From Paenibacillus borealis (GTDB taxonomy: Bacteria; Bacillota; Bacilli; Paenibacillales; Paenibacillaceae), in assembly GCF_000758665.1 (NCBI RefSeq), contig NZ_CP009285.1, positions 3,038,001-3,102,000 on the forward strand: a DNA stretch of 64,000 nt. Direction: 5' to 3'. A model generated the notes under the pieces. It saw only the letters and a program-made list of their open reading frames with translations. It searched no databases and was not told the origin of the DNA. A program made the translations under genes and the position numbers. Below, one piece after another: positions 14,838 through 55,786 of the stretch (its first letter is position 1; each line of letters opens with the position of its first letter).

Positions 14838-15420
14838 GCTAGCGGAGAAAGAAGCTGATGGAGCAGCATATCCAGCAAATGCAGAGTGGACTGGCTGTTG
14901 TTGGATTCTAAGTGGTGAAACCTATGAAAATTCAGAGATAGTTGTATTATGTACAATTAAAAACAGCGAAAAGGGATGCCTGCATCAAATAACTGTAGTT
15001 CGTACAACTAAATCTGTCTGAATAGCTGAGAGCGCATCTGCATAGGGCAGTTTAATTGTACGAAATACAACTAAACGGATAATTGGCTTTTAATCAGATG
15101 ATTTAGTTGTACAAAGTGCACTTAAGCAAAATGCATATACCGTAATCGGGTCACTGTAAACCCTCAGCAAGCGATTTACCAAAGTGATTGTCACTGGTTT
15201 AAAACTGATGTTAGATTAGTGTGGAGATCAGGATGGCAGTTTATCATCAAGTCTGGGTCTTCGTATGCAGGCATTCTGCCATCCACCGGTTTTGGGCAGC
15301 TGCGCGGGTATTGGATTTACAAAATCTTTGATAGAAATGTAATCTCAGTTGATGGGGTTGAGGTAAGCTTTTGATATAGAGTGTGTTGTAGATTATATAG
15401 AGAGATAAGGATGGTGGAGT
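14838..15420. other. 583-base gap between rsuA-like and HAD genes
   Basis: No convincing gene is seen. The gap holds the GTTGTAC palindrome array (14939-15127). A 9-bp inverted repeat follows, GGATGGCAG at 15231-15239 and CTGCCATCC at 15276-15284. Confidence 0.6.
14939..15127. repeat. Array of four GTTGTAC/GTACAAC palindromes, 50-60 bp apart (copy A)
   Basis: Four imperfect palindromes built on TTTAGTTGTAC and GTACAACTAAA are centred near 14948, 15004, 15064 and 15114. The sequence between them is not conserved. The same motif occurs in arrays at 28714-28892 and 55316-55496. Confidence 0.75.
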
Positions 15421-16221
15421 ATGAAATACAAGCTGATAGCACTTGATGTGGACGGAACGCTGCTGGATGATGATCATCACTTGAGTGACGAGAATAAAGA
15501 GGCCATTGCCGAGGTTACCCGCCAGGGCGGCCAGATCGTATTGTGCACTGGACGAAGCCCGCAGAATTCGATTCCATTCATGGAAGAGATGGGCTTGTCC
15601 GGGTATGTGCTTGGCCATAATGGAGCGGCAACCGTTAGAGTGAAGGACCGCAAGGTACTGCATCAATACGGAATGGACGCCCGGGGGCTTGACCCCTATA
15701 TAGCGTATTGCCGTGAACGTGATATCCATTTTGACGTCAACACCGCATTTGATATGTATGTCGACAACGTGGAGAATCTGACCCAGGAAGCCAATTTCAT
15801 GTATGAGCATTTCCGGATTATGCCTGCATCGCTGCCGGCCTGGGAGGATTTCCGCGAACCGATTGTGAAATTTACCGTGTTCACGCAGCCGGACATTCTG
15901 GATGAAGCGCAGCGGGAATGGGCTACCTGGGGAGAGCAGTACAATATTCTGCGCAGCGGAGAATTCTTCGTGGACTTTATGCACCCGGAAGCCTCCAAAG
16001 GCAATGCCCTGAAGAATCTGGCCGCAGAGCTGGGCATCCCTCAGGAGCAGGTCCTGTCGATCGGCAATTATTATAATGATATCTCAATGCTGACATACGC
16101 CGGCCTGGGTGTTGCGATGGATAATTCTCCGGTTGAGGTCAAAGCGGCAGCGAATGCTGTCACCGGAACTAATAATGAGAATGGTGTGCGCGATGCGCTG
16201 GTGAAGTATTGCCTGTCTTAA
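15421..16221 (+). CDS. HAD-superfamily phosphatase, Cof type (IIB)
   Basis: This 266-residue protein has the HAD nucleophile motif LDVDGTLLDDD at residues 8-18. Motif II is CTGRSP, the lysine is near HPEASKGNALKNL, and motif IV is IGNYYNDISML. The alpha/beta cap between motifs marks the Cof/YkrA subgroup. Members dephosphorylate sugar phosphates, FMN precursors or pyridoxal phosphate; the substrate cannot be read from the sequence. The ATG follows GGTGGAGT. The gene stands alone between two repeat-rich gaps. Confidence 0.88.
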   Translation: MKYKLIALDVDGTLLDDDHHLSDENKEAIAEVTRQGGQIVLCTGRSPQNSIPFMEEMGLSGYVLGHNGAATVRVKDRKVLHQYGMDARGLDPYIAYCRERDIHFDVNTAFDMYVDNVENLTQEANFMYEHFRIMPASLPAWEDFREPIVKFTVFTQPDILDEAQREWATWGEQYNILRSGEFFVDFMHPEASKGNALKNLAAELGIPQEQVLSIGNYYNDISMLTYAGLGVAMDNSPVEVKAAANAVTGTNNENGVRDALVKYCLS

Positions 16222-16249
16222 TGTGGCTCTAACTAGAGTCTGACAGACA

Positions 16250-16462
16250 AAGTGGATTTTTAGGAGATTAGGTGGAAAATCGTCATCTAATGATGTGGAA
16301 ATCACCGGACGCGGGGCAGCAGTTGGGAAAAAGACGCTTAATTCCACTCCCTCTGGAGAATATCGGGATTATGTGCGGAATTGGTTGACGAAAATCCACT
16401 TAATATTAGCAACGCAGCAGAAATGTTATGATTAAATGTTGAAAATCCATCTATTTCCACCA
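16250..16462. repeat. Inverted array of GTGGATTTT / GTGGAAAATC motifs
   Basis: Motifs in plus orientation lie at 16252, 16272 and 16295 (GTGGATTTT, GTGGAAAATC, GTGGAAATC). Motifs in the reverse orientation lie near 16341 (ATTCCAC), 16390 (AAAATCCAC) and 16441-16460 (AAAATCC..TTTCCAC). The set is roughly symmetric about 16355, so the strand could fold back on itself. No gene is seen elsewhere in the 16222-16689 gap. Confidence 0.6.
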
Positions 16463-16611
16463 CAGCCCGGGTTGATTCACAGAATTTAGGATCAATGAAG
16501 CTTGCAGAAGATAAAGACTTACATTAAGCATGGTTCAGTGCCTTGGCGGCCTCTGGGCCATGCTTTTATTGTGGTCTCGTTCAAATAAAAATGAAAAAGC
16601 GCAAAAAAAAC

Positions 16612-16658
16612 CCAAAAAAGCAGCCTTTCCGCTCCTGAAAAGGAACGGCGGGCTGCTT
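16612..16658 (-). terminator. Rho-independent terminator for the YjcZ-like gene
   Basis: On the minus strand AGCAGCC (16657-16651) pairs with GGCTGCT (16625-16619), with further inner pairing. A run of Ts and a second T-run follow. It lies 33 bases after the stop of the small gene. Confidence 0.75.
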
Positions 16659-16689
16659 GATGTCTATACGCTATGCTGTTTCAGCGGAA

Positions 16690-16782
16690 TTAGACAAACA
16701 ACGAACGGGAAATGATTACGAGCAATATGAAGAGCACCAAAATCGCACCGGTCGATGTGAACCCTGGAACTACTGCACCCAT
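16690..16782 (-). CDS. YjcZ-like small sporulation membrane peptide (30 residues)
   Basis: Thirty codons start at ATG 16782 after GGGAGGAATCAG. The peptide has a short Gly/Val/Pro/Thr head and a single hydrophobic helix (GAILVLFILLVIIS), ending with RSLFV. Length, head and helix match the YjcZ/YosA family of tiny Bacillota proteins found in spores or the spore envelope. The family is too short for firm homology by eye. Its own ribosome binding site and terminator support it as a real gene. Confidence 0.72.
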   Translation of the reverse strand: MGAVVPGFTSTGAILVLFILLVIISRSLFV

Positions 16783-16897
16783 GTCTGATTCCTCCCTTGA
16801 CTCATGTCTGTTCCCATTGCCGCGGGTCTTGCTCAGCGGGCTTCCATGGGATAATGACATCATATGCATTAGGAGGCTTCCTGAACTGGTCAGCAGC

Positions 16898-18304
16898 CTA
16901 AACTTCATCATTATGGGCTTTCAGAATCCTCAGGCCCTTGGGCAGGTGATTCTTCAGCTGGCCGGAGCTGGCTTTGCCCCAGCCTACAGACAAGCCATCC
17001 ACGCTTACCAGCGTCCAGCCATGCAGGCTTGCCGGAACAGGAAGACTCTCTCCACGCAGCCAGGCCTGAATTTCCGGACCCCCGGCAGGCATATTATAGT
17101 TACGCGCCGCCTGATCCGGTCTCAGCGCCATGGCCAGAGCGTGGGCGGGTTCAATCCGGTTTTTCTTCAAGTGGGCAATATGCAGTCCGGCACGCGGAAC
17201 CTTGAGGCCGTCGAGTATGCCGCTGTGCAGCCGTTCATTAAACGTTTCCGGCAGCAAATACAGAGATTCACCGAAGAGAAGCGGCACGCCGTCTCCAGCA
17301 AATCCGGGCAGCTCTTCCGAAGACCAGGTTATAAACTGCTGGTAGGCATCCCGGAGAGAGGAGCTGACTTTCGGGCCATTTTTGCTGCGGTCCCCGCGTT
17401 TAGCGCGGCCCTGACGCTGTACAGATTCAGTATCTTCCTCTGAGACTGCCTTGCGCAGCAGAGCTACGAAATGCCCTTCGCCTTTCTCCAAATGAGGCCA
17501 CAGCCGTTTCATAACGATCAGCTCCATATCAGGATAGCTCCGTACAAAGCGTTCCATCGTTTCCTCGTTTTCTTTGCGGTTAAAGGTACAGGTCGAATAG
17601 GCCATACTGCCGCCCGGCTTCAGCATCAGGTAGGCATCCTGCAGAATATCCCACTGTCTGGCCGCACACATCTCCACATGCTTCGGCGACCATTCGCTGA
17701 TGGCAGCAGGGTCTTTGCGGAACATCCCTTCACCGGAGCAAGGCGCATCGAGCATAATCCGGTCAAAGACTTCAGGGAAACGCTTGGCGAGTTCCCCCGG
17801 GGTTGCCGAGGTGACAAGCGCATTAGCTATCCCCAGCCGCTCTACGTTTTCAGCCAGTATTTTGGCCCGTTCCGGGTGGATTTCATTGGATATAAGCAAG
17901 CCTTGTCCTTGCATCAGCGCGGCAATATGGGTGGTTTTACCGCCGGGAGCGGCAGCAAGATCGAGCACTGTCTCCCCGGGAAGCGGTCCAAGCAGCTCAG
18001 CTGCGGACATTGCCGAGGGTTCCTGAATATAATATAGTCCGGCGGTATGATAAGGATGTCTCCCCGGCCGTGCCGGCTCTTCATAATAAAACCCTGCTGG
18101 ACACCAAGGCACCGGCGACAGGCTGAATTGGGATATTGCCTGCTCCGCCGCGATGCGGCCCGGATCTGAAATGCTTTTTAAACCATTGAACCGCAGACCC
18201 TGGGTCCGCCGTGCATGATAGCTCTCCAGAAAAGCGTCTGCCGTCTCCCCCAGCATCTCTCTAATGTCAGCGGTGTAAGCGGCAGGCAGCCGTTCTTCAT
18301 TCAT
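16898..18304 (-). CDS. rRNA cytosine-5 methyltransferase, NOL1/NOP2/Sun family (RsmF-like), copy 2
   Basis: This 468-residue paralogue of the gene at 12519-14069 has the same landmarks: YYIQEPSAMSAAELLG, VLDLAAAPGGKTTH, the motif IV cysteine in DAPCSGEGMFRK and STCTF. By eye the core is about half identical to copy 1. It lacks the long low-complexity insert. Two RsmF-like enzymes suggest two different target cytosines, or one rRNA and one other RNA. It is transcribed opposite to copy 1 and has its own AGGAG site before ATG 18304. Confidence 0.9.
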   Translation of the reverse strand: MNEERLPAAYTADIREMLGETADAFLESYHARRTQGLRFNGLKSISDPGRIAAEQAISQFSLSPVPWCPAGFYYEEPARPGRHPYHTAGLYYIQEPSAMSAAELLGPLPGETVLDLAAAPGGKTTHIAALMQGQGLLISNEIHPERAKILAENVERLGIANALVTSATPGELAKRFPEVFDRIMLDAPCSGEGMFRKDPAAISEWSPKHVEMCAARQWDILQDAYLMLKPGGSMAYSTCTFNRKENEETMERFVRSYPDMELIVMKRLWPHLEKGEGHFVALLRKAVSEEDTESVQRQGRAKRGDRSKNGPKVSSSLRDAYQQFITWSSEELPGFAGDGVPLLFGESLYLLPETFNERLHSGILDGLKVPRAGLHIAHLKKNRIEPAHALAMALRPDQAARNYNMPAGGPEIQAWLRGESLPVPASLHGWTLVSVDGLSVGWGKASSGQLKNHLPKGLRILKAHNDEV

Positions 18305-18494
18305 ACATCATTCTCCTCTAGTCAAAATCCAAGATAAGTAAAGCTGTCATCTTAGTTGCTGTTTCAGGTAGATACCGATAAAATCAAAGTATGGACCTTA
18401 GCGTGCCTGTAATTGTACTTCTACATATACACAACTATATCATAATTGCCGGGTCTCACCGTAATCAGGGCAATTGTAAAGGGAGATGTACCTT

Positions 18495-19631
18495 ATGAAC
18501 TTGCTGCAAGCGCTATTCTTCCCGCCGGAGCAGCCCGGTGGTGTATCTTCTATGATCCCTTATCTGCAGGAACGCTTCCGGTCCAGCCGCTGGGAGATGG
18601 ATTTGTTCTGGCTGCCCAAACGGATCCGGGGCAAGGGACGCGAAGAGATTGTCTTTGAAACCTTTGACTGGACACAGTACGGCGAAAGTCCGGTTGTGCA
18701 AAAATATATCCAAACCTACCGCGATTATATTTGGTGGACGAAGCTGCGGATGAGCAAAAGCTATGATCTGATTCATGCCCATCACCCGATTGCAGGACTG
18801 GCGATGAAAAGAATATATCCGGAAATTCCTTTAATTCAGACGCTGCACTCCAGCTATGAGCGCGAGCTGATTCTGAACGGAGCCATCCGGGAGGGCGGCC
18901 TGGAGCATCAGTTCCTGGTCTCGATTTACCGGGAGCTGGAGCATGTCAGCGATAGGCTGATGACGGTTTCACGCGCTTTTGCCGAATATTTGACTCCATA
19001 TATTGATCATCCTGCGAGCATAGGTGTCATTCCTAACGGGTTCGACGAGAAGAGATTTAAGCCTGTGCCGCATGACAATGATATTCCGCAGCTGGTCACT
19101 GTTACCCGTCTGGTACCGGCCAAAGGAATAGATACACTGTTCAAGGCTTGTGCCGAGCTTAAAAAACGGGGCCATGAATATGTGCTGCATATTATCGGGG
19201 ACGGACCGAGCCGGGCGGAGCTGGAGCGGCTGGCGCAGGATTTGGGAATTTATAATGAAACGATCTTTTACGGCTATACACTGCATCCGGAGGAATTCAT
19301 GCCGTTCTTTGATATTTTTGTCCTCCCTTCGCGGGCGGAAGCGTTCGGATCAGTATTTGCGGAAGCCGCACTCAGCTGTCTGGCGCTCGTCGGAACGAAT
19401 GTGGGCGGGATTCCCGAGCAGATCGAAGACGGTGTAAACGGGCTGCTGGTGAATCCGGATGATGAGCTGGGACTGGCGGATGCCCTTGAGAAAGTGATCA
19501 GTGATCCCGGCTACCGTTATGAGCTGTCACGTTCGGCCTGGGATAAAGCCAAAAGCCTCTATTCCCTGACCCGGGTAGCCAATGAACTGAAGAAGACTTA
19601 CCTGCAGTATCAGCCTGGATTGAAGGGGTGA
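18495..19631 (+). CDS. Glycosyltransferase family 4
   Basis: This 378-residue GT-B enzyme has the N-terminal glycine-rich acceptor region (FFPPEQPGGVSSMIPYL) and the GT4 nucleotide-sugar site near residues 270-310 (FVLPSRAEAFGSVFAEAAL, with the E-x7-E pattern). The start ATG at 18495 follows GGGAG at 9 bases; an ATG at 18486 is too close to that site. Acceptor and donor sugars are unknown. It runs into yhaO (4-base gap), so it may be co-transcribed with the nuclease pair. An inverted repeat AATTGCC/GGCAATT lies upstream (18444-18475). Confidence 0.85.
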   Translation: MNLLQALFFPPEQPGGVSSMIPYLQERFRSSRWEMDLFWLPKRIRGKGREEIVFETFDWTQYGESPVVQKYIQTYRDYIWWTKLRMSKSYDLIHAHHPIAGLAMKRIYPEIPLIQTLHSSYERELILNGAIREGGLEHQFLVSIYRELEHVSDRLMTVSRAFAEYLTPYIDHPASIGVIPNGFDEKRFKPVPHDNDIPQLVTVTRLVPAKGIDTLFKACAELKKRGHEYVLHIIGDGPSRAELERLAQDLGIYNETIFYGYTLHPEEFMPFFDIFVLPSRAEAFGSVFAEAALSCLALVGTNVGGIPEQIEDGVNGLLVNPDDELGLADALEKVISDPGYRYELSRSAWDKAKSLYSLTRVANELKKTYLQYQPGLKG

Positions 19632-19635
19632 GCTT

Positions 19636-21108
19636 ATGATTCCTTTTCGATTCCTGCATGCTGCAGATCTGCATCTGGACAGCCGGTTTGCCGGCCTTGC
19701 CCATCTTCCGCAGGCCATACGCTCCTATCTCCGGGAGTCCACCTTCGCCGCCCTCGGGCGGCTTGTTGGCGTAGCCATAGAGCAAAGGACGGATTTCGTT
19801 GTGATCAGCGGGGATGTCTATGATGTCTCCGATGCTTCTCTTCAGGGTCAGCTCCGGTTCCGGGAAGCGCTGGAGGAACTCGGGAGGCACGGAATTCAGG
19901 TGTTCCTGATTCACGGGAATCATGATCCGCTGGACGGGCCGCGTCTGGCAGCGGCACCGCCTGATCACGTTACGGTATTCGGCGGCAGTGAGCCGGAACA
20001 GGCCGTCGCCCGCCGCAGAGAGGATGGCCGGGAGGTAGCTGTGATCAGCGGAATCTCCTATCCGACTGCCAAAGTGACAGAGAATACGGCGCTGCGCTTT
20101 AACCGTCAGCCGGGCAGCAGCCTGTTCCATATTGGCCTGCTGCATGGCAATGTGGACGGGGATCTCCAGCATGAGACATACTCTCCGTGCAGCCGCAAGG
20201 ATCTGATCGGCAGGGGCTATGACTATTGGGCGCTGGGGCATATTCATAAACGCAGTATTCTGCATGATCGTCCGCCGATTGTCTATCCGGGAAATATTCA
20301 GGGACGGAGCATCAAGGAAACCGGCCCTAAAGGCTGCTATACCGTCCGCGTGGATGCAGAAGGTACAGCATCACTGACCTTCCATGAACTGGACAGTGTG
20401 CGCTGGCAGGTCCGTGAGATTCCCATTGATGGTCTGGCGGATGAGGCAGAGTGGACACGGGCCGTTGAGAATGCGGTTGAAGATATCCGGGAAGAAACAC
20501 CGCAGCTGATGTCTGTGGTAAGATTCCGCCTGACCGGGCGGGGAGCTATACATAAGATACTGACGGAGAAGGGGGCGGCAGATGATCTGCTCTCTGAGCT
20601 GCAGCGGCGGGAAACGGTCCGTGCGGAGCGTAAGGAGTATGCGGGTCTCGTATGGACCGAGGGCTTCTCTATTGAAACGGGACTGGCAGTCGACCGCGGC
20701 CGCCTGCTGCTGGAGGACAGCTTCCTCGGCGAAATGCTGCGGCTTGCCGGGCGGAGCGGCGGGAACGACCAGGAGCTGGAGGAGCTGATCTCCACTGCAC
20801 TAAAGCCGCTAATGGAGAATCAGGAGCTGCGCAAGCTGCTCATGTCCACAGGGAGCGAAGAGAAGCGGGAGTGGCTGAGCAGTGCTGCGGAGCTGGGCAT
20901 TGTGCTGCTCAGCGGAGTGGAGGAGCAGGCCGGTGTGCTGCTGAATCCTGCGGAGGGAGTAGTGGGCCAATCCGCCGGAGGCGGTGGATCATTCGGTGAA
21001 AGAGAAGATGCAGGCGGTTCAGCGCGGAGAGAGACGACACCGGAATGGGATGGCAGCAGGGAAGCGGCAGAGCGGAGTGGACGGCAGGAGCGGGGGAATG
21101 CAGAATGA
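19636..21108 (+). CDS. yhaO: DNA repair exonuclease, metallophosphoesterase subunit (SbcD/YhaO-like)
   Basis: This 490-residue protein has the calcineurin-like nuclease motifs AADLHLDSRF, ISGDVYD, IHGNHDPLDG and LGHIHKR. The middle and C-terminal parts match the YhaO subgroup. A Gly/Glu/Arg-rich tail of about 50 residues is likely disordered. It works with an SMC-like ATPase (next gene) in double-strand-break processing. Its stop overlaps the ATG of yhaN by 4 bases (ATGA). Confidence 0.9.
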   Translation: MIPFRFLHAADLHLDSRFAGLAHLPQAIRSYLRESTFAALGRLVGVAIEQRTDFVVISGDVYDVSDASLQGQLRFREALEELGRHGIQVFLIHGNHDPLDGPRLAAAPPDHVTVFGGSEPEQAVARRREDGREVAVISGISYPTAKVTENTALRFNRQPGSSLFHIGLLHGNVDGDLQHETYSPCSRKDLIGRGYDYWALGHIHKRSILHDRPPIVYPGNIQGRSIKETGPKGCYTVRVDAEGTASLTFHELDSVRWQVREIPIDGLADEAEWTRAVENAVEDIREETPQLMSVVRFRLTGRGAIHKILTEKGAADDLLSELQRRETVRAERKEYAGLVWTEGFSIETGLAVDRGRLLLEDSFLGEMLRLAGRSGGNDQELEELISTALKPLMENQELRKLLMSTGSEEKREWLSSAAELGIVLLSGVEEQAGVLLNPAEGVVGQSAGGGGSFGEREDAGGSARRETTPEWDGSREAAERSGRQERGNAE

Positions 21109-28565: not shown

Positions 28566-28713
28566 GGGAGCGCAGCGCTCTGTACAGATTGAACTTTCGA
28601 TTTTTCGAATTTGGGGTTGCTGCGACTACAGAGAATAGATGAACTTACGGCGGCTATTGCCGTAAGTATTCTTATCCCGATATTTGTACCGGAGATCACA
28701 TTGCTTATTAAAA

Positions 28714-28892
28714 TCTTGCACAGAATACAACATTTTCCTCATGATTTTGGCGGTAAACCAGAATTGTTGTACAAAAGGCAGCATTTACTCCTTCTTCAGG
28801 CAGTTTGCGGGGGGAATTCTTGTATTTCATACAACAATCCCCCTAAACATGTGAGTATCGAGGTATCCAAGTTGCAATACGTACAACAATTA
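28714..28892. repeat. Array of four TTGTAC-type palindromes about 52 bp apart (copy B)
   Basis: Palindromes TTGCAC..TACAAC, TTGTTGTACAA, TTGTA..TACAAC and GTTGCA..GTACAAC are centred near 28723, 28770, 28827 and 28879. They share the motif of the arrays at 14939 and 55316, and the flanks AATTGTTG/CAACAATT recur. Confidence 0.75.
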
Positions 28893-41279: not shown

Positions 41280-41377
41280 AGGGGGTTTGATGCTATGGAG
41301 TGGAGGCGCTGATCGGGGGAGGGAGAGTTGCGATTGGTGATGTAGAGTTGAGATGCTGATTGCTTCCATCAAACCGT

Positions 41378-41557
41378 GGCGGACTGTAGGGACCTTATTT
41401 TGCCGGAATCAGCCACTTTAGAGATGAAGCGGACTGAGAATCGCCTATTCAGCTTAGAACACCAGAATTAGACCCATCATTCAGGCCATAGCGGAATCTC
41501 AGTCCGCGAAGCCGGCAAAACAGCTGTTTTTCCCAAAATAACGGATTCTGAGTCCGG
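41378..41557. repeat. Inverted array of GCGGACTGAGAATC motifs
   Basis: GCGGACTG words lie at 41379 and 41429 in plus orientation. GCGGAATCTCAGTCCGC lies at 41491-41507 and ACGGATTCTGAGTCCG at 41541-41556 in the opposite sense. TTTTGCCGG (41398-41406) and CCGGCAAAA (41512-41520) are exact inverted copies. The set is symmetric about 41465 and spaced in steps of about 50 bp. No gene is supported in the surrounding 41280-41846 gap. Confidence 0.65.
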
Positions 41558-41846
41558 GTGGAACGGCTGTTTGTGCTGCCATTCTGCACCCGGCATACAA
41601 TATGGAGATCGTCTGCTTACTGTATGACTGCTCCCGGTTCTCAGTCTGCCATTAATTCGCTGTCCGCAGAACACATCGGACCCTTATTTATTGCCTGTAT
41701 GCAGGAGATGCACCTTGGATGTAGAATTTCAGGTCAGCAGGTTATTCAATCCAGTAAAAACCATTTACTCTCAAAATGCACCATTATATCGTCACGCTCC
41801 GTCTAACCTGGACAGATTCAATATTGAAGGGGACAAGGACAAGGAA

Positions 41847-47348: not shown

Positions 47349-47391
47349 GGGACTATTCCGTCCATAGCTTGTAGCGTATGCTTCCGAGGCG

Positions 47392-47434: not shown

Positions 47435-47451
47435 TATAGGGGGTTATCTTA

Positions 47452-49011
47452 ATGAAACAGACCAAATGGCTGTCACTCCTGCTGAGCACCGGGCTGCTGT
47501 TTGCGGCAACTGCCTGTGGTTCATCTAACAACACGAATAGCAGCGGGGAGAACGCTTCAACAGCAGCCCCGGCTTCTGCAGAAGCAACTGCCGCAACGGC
47601 AACATCAGAGAATGCCGCCAAGCCAGAATTGAAATCGCTTAATCTGTGGTCGAAGGATGATTACAATACGTATCCGCTGGCCAAGGTGATCGAGGAGCGG
47701 ACCGGTTATAAGGTGAAGTATGAGATGCTTCCCGCCGACAAGGCAATGGATAAGCTCAATCTGCTGATCTCCTCTGCCGAGCCGTATGATGTCATTACCA
47801 TTTCCGGTGAAAAAGCCGTGTATACCGATTATGCAAAAATGGGTGCGCTGGTGGATCTTACCCCGCTCATCGAGGAGTTCGGTGATAATATTAAGGCTTC
47901 CATCTCCCAGGCTTCCTTCGATGCGATGAAGATTGACGGCAAAATCTATGGCATCCCCAACAGCTCCTCGCAATTTGCCGGTGCCGATCTGATGATCCGC
48001 CAGGACTGGCTCGACAAGCTGGGGCTGAAGATGCCGACTACGCTTGATGAATTCACGGAAGTGCTGAAGGCCTTCAAGGAAAAAGATCCGGGCGGAACCG
48101 GGAACAGCGGCGCCCCCATGTCGATTGACGGGGCACTGGCAACAACGGCGAATATTACCGGTGCCTTCGGAATAGGCACGAGCTGGAATACGGTGGACGG
48201 CCAGCTGGTTCCGGCCCCGCTGCATCCGGGCTTCAAGGAATATCTGACGTACATGTCCGGTCTGTATAAACAGGGGCTGCTCGATAAGGAATTTGCCGTG
48301 AACAAGGATGCTACCCTGAAGGAGAAATTCACCAGCGGCAAGATTGGGGTCATTCAGCTGCCTTGGTATGATATTCCCGGAATTGCCGATGCCCTGACCA
48401 AGAACTTCCCTGATGCCAAATATGCTTACCTTCCTGCCCTCAAAGGCAAAGACGGACAAATGGGCCTCGGCATGAGCGGCGGGTTCGACCGCATTACCTT
48501 CATTCCGAAATCTGCGAAGCATCCTGAAGATGCGATTAAATGGATCAATGCCAAGCTGGAAAAAGAAACCTTCAAGCTGATTGCCATCGGTGAAGAAGGC
48601 AAACATCATACGTATAAAGACGGCGTATACAGTCCGATCCTGCCGCTATTCACGGACGAACGCGGCAACGCCAGCAATTATCTGACTGGTATAGACGAGA
48701 AGCTGTACCCGATCTATTGGCAGGCCCGGGTGCAGAAGGATGCCCGGCTGTTCGCAGGCTTCTCTTATCTGAACAATGAGCTTCCGGCGGAAGCGAGAAT
48801 TGCCGATCCGCTAGCGCTGGCACCATCCCTGCCGGAATATTCGAAGAACAATGCTTCGCTGAATCAGATGATTAATGATTTCGCCGTTAAAGTCATTGTC
48901 GGTGAAGAGTCCCCGGATGCCGTGGCTGATTTCGCCGGGAAATACAAAGCTGCAGGCGGGGAAGCCAGCACCAAAGAGGTGAATGCCTGGTATGCTACAG
49001 TGAAGAAATAG
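47452..49011 (+). CDS. Extracellular solute-binding lipoprotein (CUT1), system 1
   Basis: This 519-residue protein has a lipoprotein signal ending ATAC, with lipidated C22. A Ser/Asn/Thr-rich linker and a two-lobe family 1-type binding fold follow. It delivers an oligosaccharide to the permeases encoded just upstream. GGGGG lies before the ATG. The ligand cannot be read from the sequence; neighbouring genes point to a plant or bacterial glycan fragment. Confidence 0.92.
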   Translation: MKQTKWLSLLLSTGLLFAATACGSSNNTNSSGENASTAAPASAEATAATATSENAAKPELKSLNLWSKDDYNTYPLAKVIEERTGYKVKYEMLPADKAMDKLNLLISSAEPYDVITISGEKAVYTDYAKMGALVDLTPLIEEFGDNIKASISQASFDAMKIDGKIYGIPNSSSQFAGADLMIRQDWLDKLGLKMPTTLDEFTEVLKAFKEKDPGGTGNSGAPMSIDGALATTANITGAFGIGTSWNTVDGQLVPAPLHPGFKEYLTYMSGLYKQGLLDKEFAVNKDATLKEKFTSGKIGVIQLPWYDIPGIADALTKNFPDAKYAYLPALKGKDGQMGLGMSGGFDRITFIPKSAKHPEDAIKWINAKLEKETFKLIAIGEEGKHHTYKDGVYSPILPLFTDERGNASNYLTGIDEKLYPIYWQARVQKDARLFAGFSYLNNELPAEARIADPLALAPSLPEYSKNNASLNQMINDFAVKVIVGEESPDAVADFAGKYKAAGGEASTKEVNAWYATVKK

Positions 49012-49042
49012 AGTCAAAGAAAACATTTTAGGAGGTAAAAGG

Positions 49043-50452
49043 ATGAACAGCTACAGGATGCGGAGCAGTGAGATTCCGCTGCAGGATTCTTGGGATGTCA
49101 TCGTTGTGGGCGGCGGCCCGGCGGGGTGTACGGCGGCCGCAGCCGCAGCCCGGGAAGGGGCAAAGACGCTGCTGATTGAAGCGACAGGCAGCCTGGGCGG
49201 AATGGGCACATCGGGACTAGTGCCGGCCTGGTGCCCGTTCTCGGACATGAAGACGATCATCTACCGGGGACTGGCAATGAAGGTGTTTGAAGCCTTGAAG
49301 GCGCAGATGCCGCATGTGAGCCAAGAGGCGATGGACTGGGTTCCGATCGAACCGGAGAAGCTCAAGGTCATCTATGATGAGCTGGTAGCCGGAGCCGGTG
49401 CCACGGTGCTGTTCAATACGCAGCTGGGTTCCGTGGAGGCGGATGAGGAAGGCCATGTGCTGGCGCTAATCACTGCCAGCAAGAACGGTCTGCAGGCGCT
49501 GAAGGCCAAGGTCTATATCGACTGCACGGGCGATGCCGATGTAGCGGCCTGGGCGGGAGCGGAATATCTCAAGGGTGATACCGTAACCGGTGAGCTGATG
49601 CCTGCGACGCACTGTTTTACCCTTGGCAATGTCGATGAATATGCTTATCTGAACGGTCCGCTGCTGCATAATAACAACAAAACCAGCCCGATCTTCGATA
49701 TTCTGGGCTCCGGGAAGTTCCCTTTAATTCCGGATTCGCATATCTGCAACAATGTTATTGCTCCCCGAACGGTGGGCTTCAATGCCGGCCATCTGTGGGA
49801 TGTGGATAATACGGATGCCTTCTCCGTATCCGCTGCATTGATGCAGGGAAGGAAGCTGGCCTCCGTCTACAGGGATGCACTGGCCGAGTTCATGCCTGCT
49901 GCGTTCGGCAGCTCTTACGTAGCCAATACCGGCTCGCTGATGGGAGTACGGGAGACGCGGAGAATTACCGGCGATTATGTGCTAAGTGTGGAGGATTATG
50001 TCAACCGCCGCAGCTTCGCGGATGAAATCTGCCGCAATAGCTATTTCATTGATATCCATGGGACTGAGAAGGAAGAGAAGCAGGCAGGAGGTAAGCTGGA
50101 GGTCATTAAACGCTACGGTCCGGGAGAATCGCACGGCATTCCGTACCGCTGCTTGACCCCGCGTTCATTGAAAAATGTGCTGGTCGCGGGGCGCTCCATC
50201 TCCTGTGTCCGTGAAGTGCAAGGGAGTGTCCGGGTAATGCCGGTCTGTCTGGCAATGGGCGAAGCAGCCGGGATTGCCGCAGCACTCGCCGCGGAGCTTC
50301 CCGGTTATGACGTGCATGCGGTGGATGTATCCGTGCTGCGCAGACGCCTGAAGGAAGAGGGCGCTTACCTGCCGGATGCTGCAGACGGAACAGTATTTGT
50401 TGATCCGGATGCAGCGGCAGGAGAAGAGGGAAAACCGGTGAGGTATCACTGA
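49043..50452 (+). CDS. FAD-dependent oxidoreductase (FAD_oxidored, PF12831-like)
   Basis: This 469-residue protein starts with the dinucleotide-binding motif DVIVVGGGPAGCTAAAAA. The segment after it (ATGSLGGMGTSGLVPAWCP) and the later CTGDADVAAWAGAE fit the PF12831 group often found in sugar operons. The C-terminal GRSISCVREVQGSVRVMPVCLAMGEAAGIAAA segment closes the FAD site. It is expected in the cytoplasm, possibly oxidising a sugar or sugar acid. AGGAGG lies before the ATG. It follows the binding protein by 31 bases. Confidence 0.87.
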   Translation: MNSYRMRSSEIPLQDSWDVIVVGGGPAGCTAAAAAAREGAKTLLIEATGSLGGMGTSGLVPAWCPFSDMKTIIYRGLAMKVFEALKAQMPHVSQEAMDWVPIEPEKLKVIYDELVAGAGATVLFNTQLGSVEADEEGHVLALITASKNGLQALKAKVYIDCTGDADVAAWAGAEYLKGDTVTGELMPATHCFTLGNVDEYAYLNGPLLHNNNKTSPIFDILGSGKFPLIPDSHICNNVIAPRTVGFNAGHLWDVDNTDAFSVSAALMQGRKLASVYRDALAEFMPAAFGSSYVANTGSLMGVRETRRITGDYVLSVEDYVNRRSFADEICRNSYFIDIHGTEKEEKQAGGKLEVIKRYGPGESHGIPYRCLTPRSLKNVLVAGRSISCVREVQGSVRVMPVCLAMGEAAGIAAALAAELPGYDVHAVDVSVLRRRLKEEGAYLPDAADGTVFVDPDAAAGEEGKPVRYH

Positions 50453-50498
50453 GACATGAAGCAAAATGACGCTAGCTAGCATATAGCTTTTTCCAATC

Positions 50499-50536
50499 AG
50501 GCAATCTCCCGTCAGCGGGGATTGCCTGTCTTGTTG
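50499..50536 (+). terminator. Probable terminator of the system 1 operon
   Basis: AGGCAATC.CCC and GGG.GATTGCCT form a stem of about 11 bp with a 6-base loop, followed by a weak T-rich GTCTTGTTG. Confidence 0.6.
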
Positions 50537-50583
50537 TACGGGAATCGGACACCTTGAGTAGGGGCTTAAGAGAACGATAGGCA

Positions 50584-50755
50584 GACGAGCCGAATGTATG
50601 CGAAGAACCGAATACAATGTGCCCATGATAGGGTAGACGAGCCGAATGTATGCGGAAAACCGAATACAATGTGCCAACAATAGGGTAGACGGGCCAAATG
50701 TATGCGAAAAATCGAATACAATGTGCCAATTGTAGGGTAGACGAGCCTAATGAGG
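50584..50755. repeat. 52-bp tandem repeat, three full copies and a partial fourth
   Basis: Copies begin at 50584, 50636 and 50688, with a partial copy at 50740; each is exactly 52 bases. Each has an inner palindrome GTAT-x-CGG-aaaa-CCG-x-ATAC or a variant. Copy 2 has CGG/CCG and copy 3 has CGA/TCG, a matching change on both arms. The units have no spacers and are not CRISPR. The rest of the 50453-50822 gap shows only the terminator above. Confidence 0.85.
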
Positions 50756-50822
50756 CTGCATTCCTCTGATGCCAGCGGATGCAGCCCAAAATTAGTTGCT
50801 GTTAAAATTACTGATGATCTGG

Positions 50823-51677
50823 TTATTTTACCGTAGCTAGGTCAACTTTGCGTTTGAGGAGGATCGCGTTGATCTCGCCGCCGGCCAGGATAATGATCGA
50901 GCTGATATACAGCCAGATGAGCAGAATCATTACGCCCCCTAGACTGCCGTAGGTTTTGGTGAAATCACTGAACTGATTGACGTAGACCGAGAAGAGTACC
51001 GATGTAATAATCCATCCAAGGGTCGAGAACATCGCGCCGGGAACGACCTCCCGCAGAGCCAGTCTGCGGCTTGGGGCGATCCAGTAGAGCAGTGTGAACA
51101 CAATGAACATGACCAGCAGCGGCACAGCGTATTGCAGCAGATCCCATAGCTTCTGGAAACCGTAGGGCAGATCCGTCAACAGGAAGACCTGTGTCTTGAG
51201 CCAGGTCCCGAGGACCAGCAGCAGAATGCTGAGCAGCACGACAAAACCGATCGTAAGCGTGGCGAGAAAGGCAATCCCTCTTATTTTCCAGAAGGCCCGG
51301 CTCTCATCAATATCGTAAGCGCGGTTGAGCCCTTTAATGATCGCATTGACCCCTTTGGAAGCCGCCCAGAGTGTAGCCAGCATCCCGAAGGATAACAGCG
51401 CCTGACTGCGTCCCTCGGACACATCCTGCAGAATCTCTTCTATAATAGAGACGGCTTCGGCAGGCATCACCTGTTCCAGCTGCTGGATTTTGTCCTCCAG
51501 GGAAATATTCGCATACCCGATCAGGGTCATAATGAAGATCAGAAAGGGAAACAGCGACAGAATCAAATAATAGGTCAGCTGTGCGCTGATCCCCTGGACA
51601 TCATCGGCTTTGATTTTTTGCAGCAGCTGTTTGATGAATGTGAATGCATCCTTGCGGCCGGCAGTACTTCTGCTCAT
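50823..51677 (-). CDS. YihY/BrkB-family membrane protein
   Basis: This 284-residue protein has six hydrophobic helices and family motifs such as GISAQLTYYLILSLFPFLIF and LGGVMILLIWLYISSIIILAGGEINAIL. The role of YihY proteins is not firmly known; it was once misassigned as RNase BN. It is divergent from GH5, so it is not part of the sugar operons. The GGAGGG site lies just before ATG 51677. Confidence 0.88.
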   Translation of the reverse strand: MSRSTAGRKDAFTFIKQLLQKIKADDVQGISAQLTYYLILSLFPFLIFIMTLIGYANISLEDKIQQLEQVMPAEAVSIIEEILQDVSEGRSQALLSFGMLATLWAASKGVNAIIKGLNRAYDIDESRAFWKIRGIAFLATLTIGFVVLLSILLLVLGTWLKTQVFLLTDLPYGFQKLWDLLQYAVPLLVMFIVFTLLYWIAPSRRLALREVVPGAMFSTLGWIITSVLFSVYVNQFSDFTKTYGSLGGVMILLIWLYISSIIILAGGEINAILLKRKVDLATVK

Positions 51678-52144
51678 AGGGCCCTCCTTCTTTTATTGCG
51701 GTATAGGCTTGTTTATGAAAATATATCCATATATATGTGTCTCACATAAAATTATCCTAAGGTGCAGCATGCTTGTTCTTATTTTAGCACAGTGGGGTTG
51801 AAGAAGCAGAAGCGTCACCAAAGAATACAGGAATGGCATTCCGGAAGGAACCGGAATGCTGTTTTTTTTTGCCCGAAAAGGCCCGGCCGATAATGACAAC
51901 AGCAGAGTCTGTAATGAATAACGGGGCGCCGCAAAGCCTGTAGCAGCAAGGCTTCACACAGTGGTACTAAGATGACTATAGACGGCAATTCACAGGCTCC
52001 TCTATATTGGTGGCAGAGCAAGCAGCTGCTGCCTGAACCTGCTGGACCGGAGAATACGCTCTCTTGCCAGCTGCGAAATGAATGCGCTTTCCGTTAGATG
52101 TATCCCGTTCTGATGACCATTACAATCCTGAGGAGGCATGATTA
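51678..52144. other. 467-base gap between yihY-like and GH5 genes
   Basis: No gene is supported. A plus-strand terminator lies at 51836-51870 without any plus-strand gene before it. A weak cre-like word lies near 52077 (TGAATGCGCTTTCC, two mismatches). Confidence 0.5.
51836..51870 (+). terminator. Orphan rho-independent terminator
   Basis: GCATTCCGG and CCGGAATGC form a perfect 9-bp stem with a 6-base loop, followed after TG by nine Ts. No plus-strand gene precedes it for more than 1 kb. Confidence 0.8.
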
Positions 52145-53266
52145 ATGAGATTCCCGACTAGCTTCAAATCTGCAATGATCTGGCCGGTCTGTGCCATTCT
52201 GTTGATTTCACTGCTGACCGGTGGAGCCAGTGCGAAGGCGGAGGCATCGTCTGGAGCCGCCGTTTCCACTCCGTTGACAGCGAAGGAAATGGCCGGTCTT
52301 ATGGGCAGGGGAACTAATCTGGGCAACACGTTTGAAGGGAACTGGAACAGCCAGAGTTACGAGGATGTGAAGGCGGCTGTGGATGCTTTTATTGCGGCGG
52401 GGTATACCAACATCCGGATTCCGGTCAACTGGGGCGGACGGGGTGATAAATATGCTTCGACTGCGGATGAAGCGGGGCATTTCTCCTTCAGCGCTCCGAA
52501 TGTGGCCACGGTGAAACGTCTGGTGGATTATGTACTGAAGGATGTGAATGTTCAGCGGGCAAATGCGGGCAAGCCGCCTATCATTCTGATTGTGAATGCA
52601 CATCACGAGGAATGGGCAATGAACGCTGTTCAAGGCGAGCCTGCTTTTGAAACGAACATGCAGCGGCTGGAGACTATTTGGACGGGGATCGCGGAGCTGT
52701 TCAAGGATGAACCGGACACGCTGGTGTTCGAATTGTTCAATGAACCGCATCTGAGCCTGAATACGGGGGCAGCTGCCAAAGCGAGCGTCATTGAGCTCAA
52801 CAAGCGGGCTTATGCGGCGATCCGCAGCTACACCTTGGGCGGCATGGAGCCGCATGCCAAGCGGATCGTGATCTTCGGCGGGTACAACTACAACAGCGGA
52901 TGGGGCCTGTACGATACGTACCGCAATCCGCAGGACCTGCCGGGCGGGGGAACGGACCGCTATATTATGGGCACCTATCACTCGTATTTTCAGAATCTGG
53001 CGGATCATCTGAAGCGTGTGGACGATGTGAAGCGGGAATTTGTGGATGTGCATGACATTCCGGTGTATCTGGGCGAATTCGGCTATGAGCACCGGGGAGT
53101 CATCACGGACACACTGCTGGATTCGTACCGGCAAATCGCGAACAAGGCCATCGCGGGACAGTTTGCTTTCTCCGTATGGGATGACAATGGCTGGTATCAA
53201 ATTTATAACCGGGCAACCGGGCAATTCAATGCACTTAAGGATCAGGTTCTAGACATAAATAACTGA
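52145..53266 (+). CDS. Secreted GH5 endo-beta-glucanase-like glycoside hydrolase
   Basis: This 373-residue protein has an N-terminal signal peptide (about 1-35, ending near ASAKAEA) and a GH5 catalytic domain. The catalytic acid/base is E200 in FELFNEPHL and the nucleophile is E311 in VYLGEFGYEH. Other GH5 marks are MGRGTNLGNTFEG, NIRIPVNWGGR and WDDNGWYQIYN. No carbohydrate-binding module follows. It probably cleaves beta-1,4-glucan or a related beta-glycan outside the cell. It lies 29 bases before the system 2 permeases, so the operon couples cleavage and uptake. Confidence 0.9.
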   Translation: MRFPTSFKSAMIWPVCAILLISLLTGGASAKAEASSGAAVSTPLTAKEMAGLMGRGTNLGNTFEGNWNSQSYEDVKAAVDAFIAAGYTNIRIPVNWGGRGDKYASTADEAGHFSFSAPNVATVKRLVDYVLKDVNVQRANAGKPPIILIVNAHHEEWAMNAVQGEPAFETNMQRLETIWTGIAELFKDEPDTLVFELFNEPHLSLNTGAAAKASVIELNKRAYAAIRSYTLGGMEPHAKRIVIFGGYNYNSGWGLYDTYRNPQDLPGGGTDRYIMGTYHSYFQNLADHLKRVDDVKREFVDVHDIPVYLGEFGYEHRGVITDTLLDSYRQIANKAIAGQFAFSVWDDNGWYQIYNRATGQFNALKDQVLDINN

Positions 53267-53295
53267 TCTACGGGTGCCGGAAATGGGGAAGGAAC

Positions 53296-54249
53296 ATGGG
53301 AAATCCATTAGCGGCTTCGAAGCCGTCAATATCTGCTGTATTCCGCAGGCAGAAGCTGAAGCGTCTGGCCCGCAACCGCTGGCTGTATATCATGCTGCTG
53401 CCGGGACTGCTGTATTTTATTACTTTCAAATATGTACCGATGTATGGAGTCCTGCTGGCCTTCAAGAACTATCAGCCTTTCCTGGGGTTTGTGGATAGTG
53501 AGTGGGTGGGGATGAAGCATTTCGACCGTTTTTTCGGGGATCCGCTGTTCTGGAAGCTGCTGAAGAATACGTTCGTGCTGGCGGCCTACAATATTCTGTT
53601 CTTTTTCCCGCTGCCGATTGTGCTGGCACTGATGCTGAATGAATTAAGATCGCAGACGTACAAGAAGACAATTCAGACCCTGGTCTATATCCCCCACTTC
53701 ATGTCCTGGGTGGTTATCGTCTCTATTGCCTACCTGTTCTTCACAACCGAGGGAGGGCTGGTCAATGAAGCGATTGCCTCTGTGGGGGGCGAGAAAATCC
53801 AGTTCCTGCTTAGTCCCGGCTGGTTCCGGACCTTCATCACCGGTGAAGTAATGTGGAAGGAAACGGGCTGGGGAACGATTATCTTCCTGGCGGCGCTGGC
53901 GGGTGTAGACACACAGCTCTACGAGGCTGCCAAAATAGACGGTGCCGGACGGATGCGCCAGTTATGGCATATTACACTTCCGGCGATCCGCTCGACCATT
54001 GTGATTCTGCTGATTCTGCGGCTGGGGAATTTCCTCGATACGGGGTTTGAGCAAATCTTCCTGATGCTGAATCCGCTCAACCGGGAAGTCGGCGAAGTCT
54101 TCGATACCTATGTGTATACCACGGGGATCTCGCAGGGAGAGTACAGCTACAGTACTGCCGTCGGATTGTTCAAGTCAGTAGTTGGGCTCGTGCTGGTCTT
54201 CGGCTCCAACTTCCTGGCCAAACGTTTCGGTGAGGAAGGAATTCTCTAG
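53296..54249 (+). CDS. ABC sugar transporter permease (CUT1, LplB/YteP-like), system 2
   Basis: This 317-residue protein has six membrane helices, with the EAA-type loop QLYEAAKIDGAGRMRQLWHITLPA. It differs from the system 1 permease but has the same order of domains. GGGGAAGGAA precedes the ATG. It is co-transcribed with GH5 upstream and the second permease 26 bases downstream. The ATPase is missing. Confidence 0.93.
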   Translation: MGNPLAASKPSISAVFRRQKLKRLARNRWLYIMLLPGLLYFITFKYVPMYGVLLAFKNYQPFLGFVDSEWVGMKHFDRFFGDPLFWKLLKNTFVLAAYNILFFFPLPIVLALMLNELRSQTYKKTIQTLVYIPHFMSWVVIVSIAYLFFTTEGGLVNEAIASVGGEKIQFLLSPGWFRTFITGEVMWKETGWGTIIFLAALAGVDTQLYEAAKIDGAGRMRQLWHITLPAIRSTIVILLILRLGNFLDTGFEQIFLMLNPLNREVGEVFDTYVYTTGISQGEYSYSTAVGLFKSVVGLVLVFGSNFLAKRFGEEGIL

Positions 54250-54275
54250 GATAAACAGCGAAAGGAGGTAGAATT

Positions 54276-55157
54276 GTGGTAAAAGAAACATCATGGACGA
54301 GCCGCCTGTTTGATATATTCAATATCATCGTGCTGGCAATCATTGCGCTCATTACTATTGTTCCGTTCATTTATGTGGTTGCCGGTTCATTCGCAACGCA
54401 GCGGGAGCTGCTGGAGAAAGGTTTTATTCTCTTCCCGACAGAATTCTCGCTTGAAGCGTATAACTATATCTTCTCAACCAATACGCTGATGCGAAGCCTG
54501 GGCGTTACCATCTTCATCACAGTGGTGGGTACGCTGATTAATATTACTCTAACCTGCCTGATGGCTTATCCGTTATCCCGCAGGGATATGGATTTCCGTT
54601 CCCCCATCCAGCTCATGGTCATCTTCACCATGCTGTTCAGCGGCGGGATGATCCCGACCTTCCTGGTGGTCAAGGAGCTGGGCATGCTGGATACGTACTG
54701 GTCGCTGCTGCTGCCCGGTGCCATCAGTGCCTTCAACCTGATTATTGTCCGCAGCTTCTTCCAGCAGCTTCCGCCGGATCTGGAGGAATCAGCCAAAATC
54801 GACGGTGCCAGCGATCCCGGCATTCTGGTGCGGATTGTGATTCCTCTGTCCCTGCCGGTTCTGGCTACATTCTCGCTGTTCTATGCCGTAGGGCACTGGA
54901 ACACGTACTTCAGCTCCATTCTCTATATTAACGACTCTACCAAATGGCCGATTCAGGTGCTGCTGCGGCAGATTGTCATGCTGTCCCAGGGAGGCAGTCT
55001 GGGAGATACGTCTTCACTGGAGAGCAACTTCATCCCACCGGACCAGGCTGTGAAAATGGCGGTTATCGTAGTCTCCACGATTCCGATTCTGATCGTATAC
55101 CCGTTCCTGCAGAAGCATTTCGCCAAAGGCGCTTTGCTGGGATCGGTTAAGGGCTGA
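54276..55157 (+). CDS. ABC sugar transporter permease (CUT1, YtcP-like), system 2
   Basis: This 293-residue protein starts at GTG after AAAGGAGGT. It has six helices, and the EAA-like loop is LEESAKIDGASDPGILVRIVIPLS. It ends with KGALLGSVKG, matching the YtcP group. It pairs with the permease upstream. The binding-protein gene follows only after a 714-base repeat-rich gap, so that gene may be separately expressed. Confidence 0.93.
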   Translation: MVKETSWTSRLFDIFNIIVLAIIALITIVPFIYVVAGSFATQRELLEKGFILFPTEFSLEAYNYIFSTNTLMRSLGVTIFITVVGTLINITLTCLMAYPLSRRDMDFRSPIQLMVIFTMLFSGGMIPTFLVVKELGMLDTYWSLLLPGAISAFNLIIVRSFFQQLPPDLEESAKIDGASDPGILVRIVIPLSLPVLATFSLFYAVGHWNTYFSSILYINDSTKWPIQVLLRQIVMLSQGGSLGDTSSLESNFIPPDQAVKMAVIVVSTIPILIVYPFLQKHFAKGALLGSVKG

Positions 55158-55315
55158 GGTTTTGGATTTCCAACTACTATATAGAAGCCGCACTGTGGAA
55201 AAGAACAATACACATTACCGGTCAGTTGCTGCTGCGGTACTGGCAGCACGGAAATTCAGTACACTTGATGCGTTACCGGCCGATTAGAGTCTTCTTAGTA
55301 AGCACTGTTGAGATA

Positions 55316-55496
55316 AATGTTGTACGTTTTACAACTTTGATTCATGGATAGCTGGGTGTTCGGAAGGATTGTTGTACGAAATACAATAATATTCCTGCTT
55401 AGCCAGTTGAAAAAGGTGAAATCTTGCATTTTGTACAACAATTTTGGATTTCGGACGTTTTGATGAGGGAAATGTTGTATTTTGTGCAGGATTTCT
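55316..55496. repeat. Array of four TTGTAC-type palindromes, 51-52 bp apart (copy C)
   Basis: Palindromes GTTGTAC..TACAAC, TTGTAC..TACAA, TTGCA..TACAAC and TTGTA..TGCA are centred at about 55327, 55379, 55431 and 55482. Spacings are 52, 52 and 51 bases. The same motif occurs near 14939 and 28714. Confidence 0.8.
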
Positions 55497-55563
55497 GGAG
55501 GGTTACCGGATCGCTGTTACAAAAACCGCTGGATTGAGTGATTTATGCGGCAACAGCAGCCAT

Positions 55564-55786
55564 CTGGAAGTCCAAACAATCTCTGGAGTCACTACTCAGC
55601 CTTTAACTTGCTACAACACACCCAAATAAGGAGAACTTGAGAAAACAATAAAAAGGCAGGAGTGCGGAGGGAAAGTTTGGAACTGTAGGAGCGGTAGCGT
55701 CCGCCTTTAGGTTTGGATTTCAACCGCAGCCAGCGGTATAGAATCAGGAAATCCAAACCTAACAGCGGCCGGAAGTCCAAACATTC
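55564..55786. repeat. GGAANTCCAAAC motif array with a 15-bp inverted repeat
   Basis: GGAAGTCCAAAC lies at 55566 and 55771, and GAAAGTTTGGA at 55670 is an inverted relative. TTAGGTTTGGATTTC (55707-55721) and GAAATCCAAACCTAA (55748-55762) are perfect inverted copies with a 26-base loop. The 55566, 55670 and 55771 motifs are about 102 bases apart (twice 51). Confidence 0.7.

Follow-up and report, generated by a model that had tools for sequence, protein, structure and literature searches.

Palindrome arrays with a common spacing of about 52 bp, in part directed with replication, in intergenic regions of Paenibacillus borealis

Analysis of a 64,000-bp stretch of Paenibacillus borealis DNA (the window; bases 3038001 to 3102000 of the 8,156,808-base contig NZ_CP009285.1, an 8.16-Mb chromosome) revealed that intergenic palindromes of dissimilar sequence recur there and elsewhere in the genome at a spacing of about 52 bp. 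At least five families of sites adopt two layouts, namely, dyad-symmetric elements of four sites (the T types F1 and F2, C4, and C5) and directional tandem arrays with a period of 51 or 52 bp (classes G/K and S), the G and S forms of which run with the replication fork. The initial annotation of the window had proposed that layout, not sequence, is conserved, and this proposal was supported across families and, with fewer data, across related species. Helically phased binding arrays that act at the DNA level, and that the fork meets from one side, are the likeliest of the readings considered for this organization, although we rate it at short of an even chance.

Results

Gap statistics were obtained from five 400-kb pieces of the genome (2 Mb, to which all counts "in 2 Mb" refer) in which genes were called with a simple dicodon script, and ten dinucleotide shuffles of the gaps were used as controls. 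The 843 gaps contained 471 strong palindromes (at least 8 complementary pairs) versus 159 in the shuffles. Pairs of palindromes 48 to 55 bp apart numbered 39 versus approximately 0.2 in the shuffled gaps, and further peaks at 100 to 103 bp and 152 to 155 bp formed echoes near 102 and 154; the remaining spacings were also above the shuffles, yet by few pairs per 4-bp bin. The periods of tandem arrays in gaps, a measure independent of the palindrome pairs, agreed with them. Among 55 gap arrays with a period of at least 20 bp, 18 had a period of 51 and 6 a period of 52 (24/55), with four at 47 to 49, none at 50, and none at 53 to 59; inside genes, one tandem array of period 51 was found. The exact sequence TTGTATTNNGTACAA occurred 69 times genome-wide and its reversed control 0 times. 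The initial annotation had staked the 52-bp periodicity on an excess over shuffled gaps; the excess was found, and the phenomenon extends further than had been stated.

The step is kept while the sequence between the sites diverges. Sites of F1 and F2 follow one pattern, YTGYA-N5-TRCAR (T type). Full copies of F2 numbered 42 in 2 Mb, 41 of them measurable; all 41 were within 1 bp of the spacing 51/52/52 and 31 matched it exactly, the pairwise divergence among these 31 being 42% in the spacers and 15% in the sites. Across five genomes, T-type sites 20 to 120 bp apart were separated almost only by 51 to 53, 61 to 62, 102 to 104, or 112 to 114 bp (values occurring at least three times in the window's genome, G000), and the off-pattern spacings in the four relatives were one each of 20, 49, and 87. 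Palindromes of C4 and C5 differ from the T type and share its plan, in which two sites face one way and the remaining two the opposite way. In 12 elements of each family, the two outer steps were 50 bp in 12/12 and 11/12 cases for C4 (one 51) and 51 bp in 10/12 (one 50 and one 52) and 11/12 (one not found) for C5, and the middle steps, estimated from the element totals, were approximately 60 and 62 bp, respectively. The steps of T-type and F2 elements (51 to 53 and 61 to 62 bp) thus changed only by whole turns, as helical phasing predicts, the C4 step of 50 bp being slightly short.

The tandem arrays comprise the G class (AATGAGGGGCAGAAGTGCCCCTGAAT), the K variant (AATCAAAGGGATAAATCCCTCTGATT), and the S class (AATGTATGCGAAAAACCGAATACAATG), which have a repeat period of 51 or 52 bp. 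Likeness to CRISPR fails, the tandem units being alike over their full 51 to 52 bp, without unique spacers. Sites of the tandem arrays have an A-rich center and varying arms. Among 22 distinct G/K array consensuses, paired positions amounted to 76% versus 68% and double-change cells to 16 versus 7.1; both excesses were reached in 0 of 1,000 shuffles, kinship among the consensuses not being corrected for. The classes compared exclude arrays 7182084, 7248558, 2105258, and 2997470.

The initial annotation had described arrays without noting a relation to replication, which emerged for the tandem forms. The contig carries dnaA, dnaN, recF, and gyrB at position 1 (identified from translations of open reading frames), and the GC skew changes sign along it, from approximately +0.08 (three pieces of 400 kb below 3.3 Mb) to approximately -0.08 (two such pieces above 5.0 Mb). 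The replichores are therefore clear outside 3.3 to 5.0 Mb, and the terminus within this interval was taken as the midpoint, 4.08 Mb. With the purine-loop strand as the reference, all 26 genome matches of the exact G-class pattern and all 29 of the exact S-class pattern were directed with the fork (plus strand before the midpoint and minus strand after it). Combined genome-wide, the G and S loci were fork directed in 31/31 cases versus 1206/1576 genes on the leading strand (P = 9e-10 against one half and 2.5e-4 against the gene share). When as many as 6 substitutions were allowed in a scan of the 2 Mb, 96 G sites were leading and 1 lagging (19 loci leading only and 1 both), and 29 S sites were leading and 1 lagging (7 loci leading only and 1 lagging only). 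K sites are so close to perfect palindromes that they match on either strand, and they gave 42 leading and 11 lagging (9 loci leading only, 0 lagging only, and 9 both). Short purine motifs taken from G, K, and S sites were leading in 41 to 66% of their occurrences elsewhere in gaps. The four-site families had no significant polarity (25/42 for F2, 4/10 for F1, 11/15 for C4, and 7/15 for C5). Direction followed replication and not transcription, since two arrays in the sole gap between lagging-strand genes were oriented with replication. The same held for 5/5 arrays in gaps called convergent, two of these gaps (beside 2060274 and 7277625) resting on short, low-scoring gene calls.

Related genomes (labeled G001, G066, G069, G072, G080, G087, and G101 to G104) were compared in the same manner. 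In 200-kb pieces of G080, G087, and G102, the strand of the sites matched the local GC skew, with two S sites, one S2 site, and one A site as exceptions (the S and S2 patterns overlap), and none of the polarity-scored sites (S, S2, A, and others) was found in the 200-kb piece of G001. Position-based polarity in the relatives assumes an origin at coordinate 1, and on this assumption the S-class loci that deviated were 0/8 in G080, 2/11 in G102, 1/8 in G101, 1/4 in G069, and 2/3 in G087. The skew of G087 is negative at 2.5 to 2.7 Mb, so that its coordinates evidently run otherwise. Among single-contig relatives, the G-class loci off the same assumption were one in G103, one in G104, and two in G087, and the others fit. 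Outside the window's genome, polarity is strong, not absolute.

Within the window, F1 is present at 14935 to 15127 (plus strand) with the spacing 51/63/51 (51/62/51 in most copies), site orientation A A B B, and 22-bp sites at 14939-14960, 14990-15011, 15053-15074, and 15104-15125. F2 lies at 28709 to 28891 (plus strand; spacing 51/53/52, orientation B B A A) and, in reverse orientation, at 55313 to 55493 (minus strand; four sites, spacing 52/52/51); these two had been taken for distinct arrays and are the same family in opposite orientations. Degenerate four-site copies of C5 (TAAGTGGA...CACTTAA type) at 16269 to 16456 and of C4 (GCGGACTGAGAATCCGC type; family outer steps of 50) at 41376 to 41565 were recognized by profile and have no assigned strand. 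The S-class tandem array at 50576 to 50752 (period 52, 3.4 copies) contains one 26-bp imperfect palindrome in each 52-bp unit, and its A-rich-center strand is the plus strand, the fork direction. At 55668 to 55802 (plus strand), an unrelated nested inverted repeat of approximately 137 bp, C1, is located outside the 52-bp layout. Together, these results uphold the annotated arrays at 14939, 28714, 50584, and 55316, identify those at 16250 and 41378 as the degenerate copies, and replace that at 55564 by the different repeat C1. The notion of several unrelated families holds genome-wide and was overstated for the window, in which the arrays at 14939, 28714, and 55316 have one site motif in common.

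Three other repeats were encountered. C1 has many matches, up to approximately 90% identical, in four related genomes, and 19/25 of its matches in 2 Mb are on the leading strand. C2, found for example at genome positions 162530 and 364553, is a repeat of approximately 90 bp (GGGGTCCCCGCAAAGTACCTGAGT...CCCCACTTTGTGGGG) that resembles an RNA element or a terminator, with 13/14 matches on the leading strand. C3, of approximately 75 bp (GCTTCCGAAGCGAGTTTTG...AAAACTTTTAGGAGG), for example at 3085370 (window position approximately 47370), has an apparent ribosome-binding site at its end and is probably a repeat in front of genes.

Elements of F1, F2, C1, C4, and C5, including partial copies, occupied 100 distinct gaps. 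Convergent gaps accounted for 32/100 versus 54/406 in a background of gaps of at least 250 bp (P = 4e-5), and divergent gaps for 10/100 versus 105/406 (P = 5e-4). The convergent excess was due to F2 (21/49) and C5 (8/20) and was slight in C4 (4/18) and C1 (5/28); F2 was mostly behind genes. Tandem arrays were located in divergent gaps in 0/24 cases and were sense to flanking genes in 16/19 as scored, or 17 once array 7213642, antisense on a purine count, is oriented by its consensus.

The initial annotation had also envisaged a structured RNA class, which would be expected to favor wobble pairs over A-C on the transcribed strand. Palindromes in elements of F1, F2, C1, C4, and C5 located in codirectional gaps were oriented by transcription and contained 145 G-T versus 137 A-C pairs, whereas 62 terminator-like hairpins contained 45 G-T versus 13 A-C. 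Since the four-site elements have no sense-strand G-T bias, while terminators have one, we take their palindromes to act at the level of DNA. The case is weaker for the tandem arrays, for which it comes mainly from polarity; by our own count from the table of G/K consensuses, the purine-loop strand has 13 A-C mismatches and 8 G-T. Single F2 sequences folded with mean z scores of -4.2 and -4.6 on the two strands (20 sequences), and the pairing energy of the F2 consensus fold was -7.8 and -12.5 versus approximately -0.1 in column shuffles, with almost no covariation (0.01 and 0.32 on the two strands). With this near-zero covariation, the fold gives no reason to prefer an RNA to a set of DNA palindromes for F2. 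Comparison with Rfam returned one tRNA only for the window and three subthreshold matches only for four element loci. The lack of a sense-strand wobble bias and of an Rfam family disfavors a structured RNA class.

All periodicity tests were made within Paenibacillus, the relatives being sampled by 200 kb each from G080, G087, G102, and G001. At a lower palindrome threshold, pairs 48 to 55 bp apart numbered 26, 26, 25, and 17 in these four pieces, respectively, versus 5, 9, 6, and 7.4 in five shuffles; at a higher threshold, they numbered 8, 2, 10, and 2 versus 0, 0, 0, and 0.8. Other and wider spacings also exceeded the shuffles, and on this measure G001 adds little support because its excess at 30 to 47 bp (33 versus 11.2) is larger than that at 48 to 55 bp (17 versus 7.4). 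Gap arrays in the four pieces included seven of period 51 and two of period 52, and their palindromes were in part different ones (for example, AAGTGTA-CTTA-TACACTT and AATGTAATCG-AAAAAC-CGATTACAAT). TRF analysis of 37 Paenibacillus loci around one gene (451,529 bases) yielded just two arrays with a 51- or 52-bp period, namely, L139 (51 × 10.2) and L142 (52 × 2.7), both within stop-free frames (657 and 501 bases, respectively), so that breadth in the wider genus is thinly shown. In the G001 piece, at 93322 to 94354, an entire F1-like element (51/62/51) has been amplified as a 347-bp tandem repeat of three copies.

Families were limited to clades, dispersed, and patchy between species, and copies were gained or lost at two gaps whose genes were retained. 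At the gap of the 28714 element, the window's genome, G066, and G080 have F2 at the same place, G072 has instead an S-type array of five 51-bp units (by eye), and G069 has a remnant at the same point. The nearest named relative, as judged by the HAD gene of the window, is Paenibacillus phytohabitans (96% identity). Upstream of this gene, F1 is present at the same place in the window and in P. phytohabitans, C4 is present in P. silagei, and neither is present in P. tritici. In P. silagei, downstream of the HAD gene (L133 from approximately 6900), lies sequence that resembles the beginning of a group II intron. The gap holding the C5 element of the window is likewise occupied in P. phytohabitans. 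The S array of the window has 3.4 copies, its counterpart in G066 has 7 at constant spacing, and in G080 a single copy was detected.

Four ortholog comparisons, covering the elements at 14939, 28714, and 55316, gave divergences of 9% in sites, 30% in spacers, and 12% in flanks, with 1/424, 3/312, and 57/840 gap columns, respectively; a fifth, of C4 with G066, gave 2.9%, 9.3%, and 4.0%. The evidence for a locked length rested on the F2 paralogs, because conversion between copies would also explain the unchanged length of orthologs. Ortholog spacers diverged approximately 2.5 times faster than flanking gap DNA with their length kept; possible causes are conversion among copies and a hot spot of mutation at these places.

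A mobile palindromic element, also suggested by the initial annotation, fits in part, through the dispersed and patchy spread of the families. Target-site duplications were not found for F2 (42 elements), F1 (10), C4 (14), C5 (14), or C1 (16) against five shuffles each, the sole excess being of 6-mers in C5 (5/14 versus at most 4), located within the element. The Y1/RAYT transposase domain (PF01797) had 0 matches in the window's genome versus 5 positives among 14 control genomes. A search of the 2 Mb for an autonomous copy yielded 20 partial copies outside C1, none of which formed same-family halves flanking a gene within 4 kb; halves of one family either stood singly or lay no more than 170 bp apart, and full elements match their own reverse strand. 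Viral contigs had no match to the T-type two-site pattern or the G-class pattern, and phage records had none to the F1 region. A limited search of open-access literature, judged by titles and the beginnings of abstracts, contained among the papers listed no recognizable description of such arrays.

Discussion

We propose that each imperfect palindrome of 20 to 28 bp would be the site of a dimeric DNA-binding protein, adjacent dimers being approximately five helical turns apart (50 to 53 bp) and the central step of some elements spanning approximately six (60 to 63 bp). Given this spacing, neighboring dimers would lie on one face of the helix and be able to touch. Geometry may be the constrained property, since spacing is fixed despite divergent spacers and some G/K arms covary, while the bound sequence would differ by family and drift. 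The dyad symmetry of four-site elements makes them alike from both sides and therefore suited to convergent gaps, in which they are enriched; in directional tandem arrays, the complex, or a process spreading it, would meet the fork from a fixed side. A DNA-wrapping protein reading about five turns is the best fit of the three mechanisms originally offered and is not proved.

Several observations weigh against these phased binding arrays. No protein partner was found, and to serve families so unlike in sequence, either several proteins or a single reader of DNA shape would be required. The polarity of the tandem arrays is also expected from a single-strand mechanism acting on the lagging template. 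Two other measures of G/K covariation were within the shuffles (pairs with a double change, 684/1000; further pair types, 147/1000), and in the S class, with 8 distinct consensuses, only the paired share exceeded them (1/1000). The C4 and C5 copies of the window are individually weak palindromes, and the C4 step of 50 is slightly under five turns of 10.4. Ortholog sites were not significantly better conserved than flanks (9% versus 12%, P = 0.18), only than spacers. When F2 and C1 were oriented by element, G-T and A-C pairs numbered 100 versus 155 and 19 versus 38, respectively, so that one strand could still favor wobble; this A-C excess is a fixed asymmetry of their sites.

One rival supposes that, during replication, the single-stranded lagging template forms a hairpin with a purine-rich loop at each palindrome. 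The 51- to 52-bp unit would then be copied or multiplied, either by a single-strand recombinase or by the fork, with polarity as a by-product. We regard this as unlikely but to be taken seriously, since the purine-loop strand is the lagging template at all 31 G and S loci, the sites combine an A-rich center with varying arms, and copy number at one place varies (3.4, 7, and 1) with a constant period. The lack of a Y1 transposase in this genome weighs on the other side, as do the four-site families without significant polarity and the fixed steps of 51/52 and 61/62 bp, which have no obvious cause in single strands. Compared with phased binding, this mechanism explains polarity better and spacing worse. 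The near-perfect polarity of G and S is awkward for the view that these are ordinary selfish or neutral repeats, i.e., old interspersed elements together with slippage arrays behind genes, with a spacing inherited from few ancestors. Spacers 42% divergent with a net length change of at most 1 bp, and a 51/52 period that recurs with different palindromes and in different genomes, lead us to consider this rather improbable as a full account, even though the clade-limited, patchy families, the gain and loss of copies at gaps, and the avoidance of divergent gaps, as expected of any insertion, are what it predicts.

For transcribed hairpins in 3' untranslated regions, the sense orientation of tandem arrays to flanking genes and the position of F2 behind genes are favorable, and both strands of F2 have a better fold than their shuffles, a property to be expected of any array of palindromes. 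Such an RNA is nevertheless improbable in view of the wobble counts, including the G/K consensuses in which A-C is at least as common as G-T, of the covariation and Rfam results above, and of the arrays between lagging-strand genes and in convergent gaps, which follow replication. A further candidate is replication terminator protein (RTP), or a protein related to it, which would bind the sites as a genome-wide polar fork trap. An RTP is encoded at 3.876 Mb (PF02334, E = 8.5e-49; B. subtilis alone was positive among 14 controls), and its gene (L232:1408-1854) is a full-length homolog matching PDB 1bm9 (E = 6e-32). An F2 element lies approximately 0.9 kb upstream of rtp (by eye), and the tandem arrays are polar as a trap would be. 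The T-type elements are non-polar, however, the many sites of unrelated sequence are unfit for one sequence-specific protein, and the 200 bp preceding rtp contain no T, G, or S site by eye and instead contain other repeats of the form GAAAAATTCACAATAGAAA, perhaps its Ter sites; we hold such a trap to be very improbable.

Among known systems, KOPS and SRS are single short non-palindromic motifs that orient the chromosome, are spread through genes as well, and are strongly polar. The present arrays are like them in polarity with replication and unlike them in being intergenic palindromes of several sequences. The Ter sites known so far are small in number and belong to a single sequence type, whereas the sites described here are many and of several sequences, with four-site elements that are non-polar. 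The likeness to RTP-Ter lies in the polar tandem arrays and the encoded RTP, the Ter sites of Bacillus being, in excerpts of PMC10331603, bound by dimers and polar with replication.

The nearest known kind is the repetitive extragenic palindrome (REP) and its BIME arrangement. In excerpts of PMC3733652, REPs carry GTAG and CGTC tags and prefer unidirectional and convergent gaps, and the frequency of GT pairs is taken as support for REP function as RNA; the words Paenibacillus and Firmicutes are absent from its main text. With REPs as presented there, our arrays share short imperfect extragenic palindromes, high copy number, frequent pairing or grouping, and the preference for unidirectional and convergent gaps. 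They differ by the lack of RAYT/Y1 and of a sense-strand GT bias, by one spacing common to several families, and by replichore polarity. No GTAG or CGTC tag was seen by eye in the consensus sites, no systematic search having been made. Because the RAYT test fails, we do not file the arrays as RAYT-borne REPs. Miniature inverted-repeat transposable elements, of which the same excerpts name the bacterial Bcr1, RUP, NEMIS, and ERIC, resemble our elements in being up to approximately 300 bp long, non-coding, dispersed, and dyad symmetric. The differences are the absence of target-site duplication in five families, the absence of any sign of an autonomous copy in 2 Mb, and the presence of four internal phased sites.

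Extragenic palindromes are usually defined by a sequence and a transposase. What is conserved in the present arrays is a ruler of approximately five helical turns, kept through strong sequence turnover in dissimilar families, and its tandem form is directed with the fork. Phased binding arrays of this kind could belong to a new chromosome-organizing or fork-interacting system of Paenibacillus that reads the geometry of palindromes (shape, phase, and tandem direction) and not their sequence. Families of sequence would then come and go, and the architecture of the arrays at gene borders would remain; this extension is possible but doubtful. If true, it would amount to a previously undescribed protein system, linked to the nucleoid or to replication, in a large spore-forming genus, and it raises the question of what reads the geometry and direction of palindromes without fixed letters.

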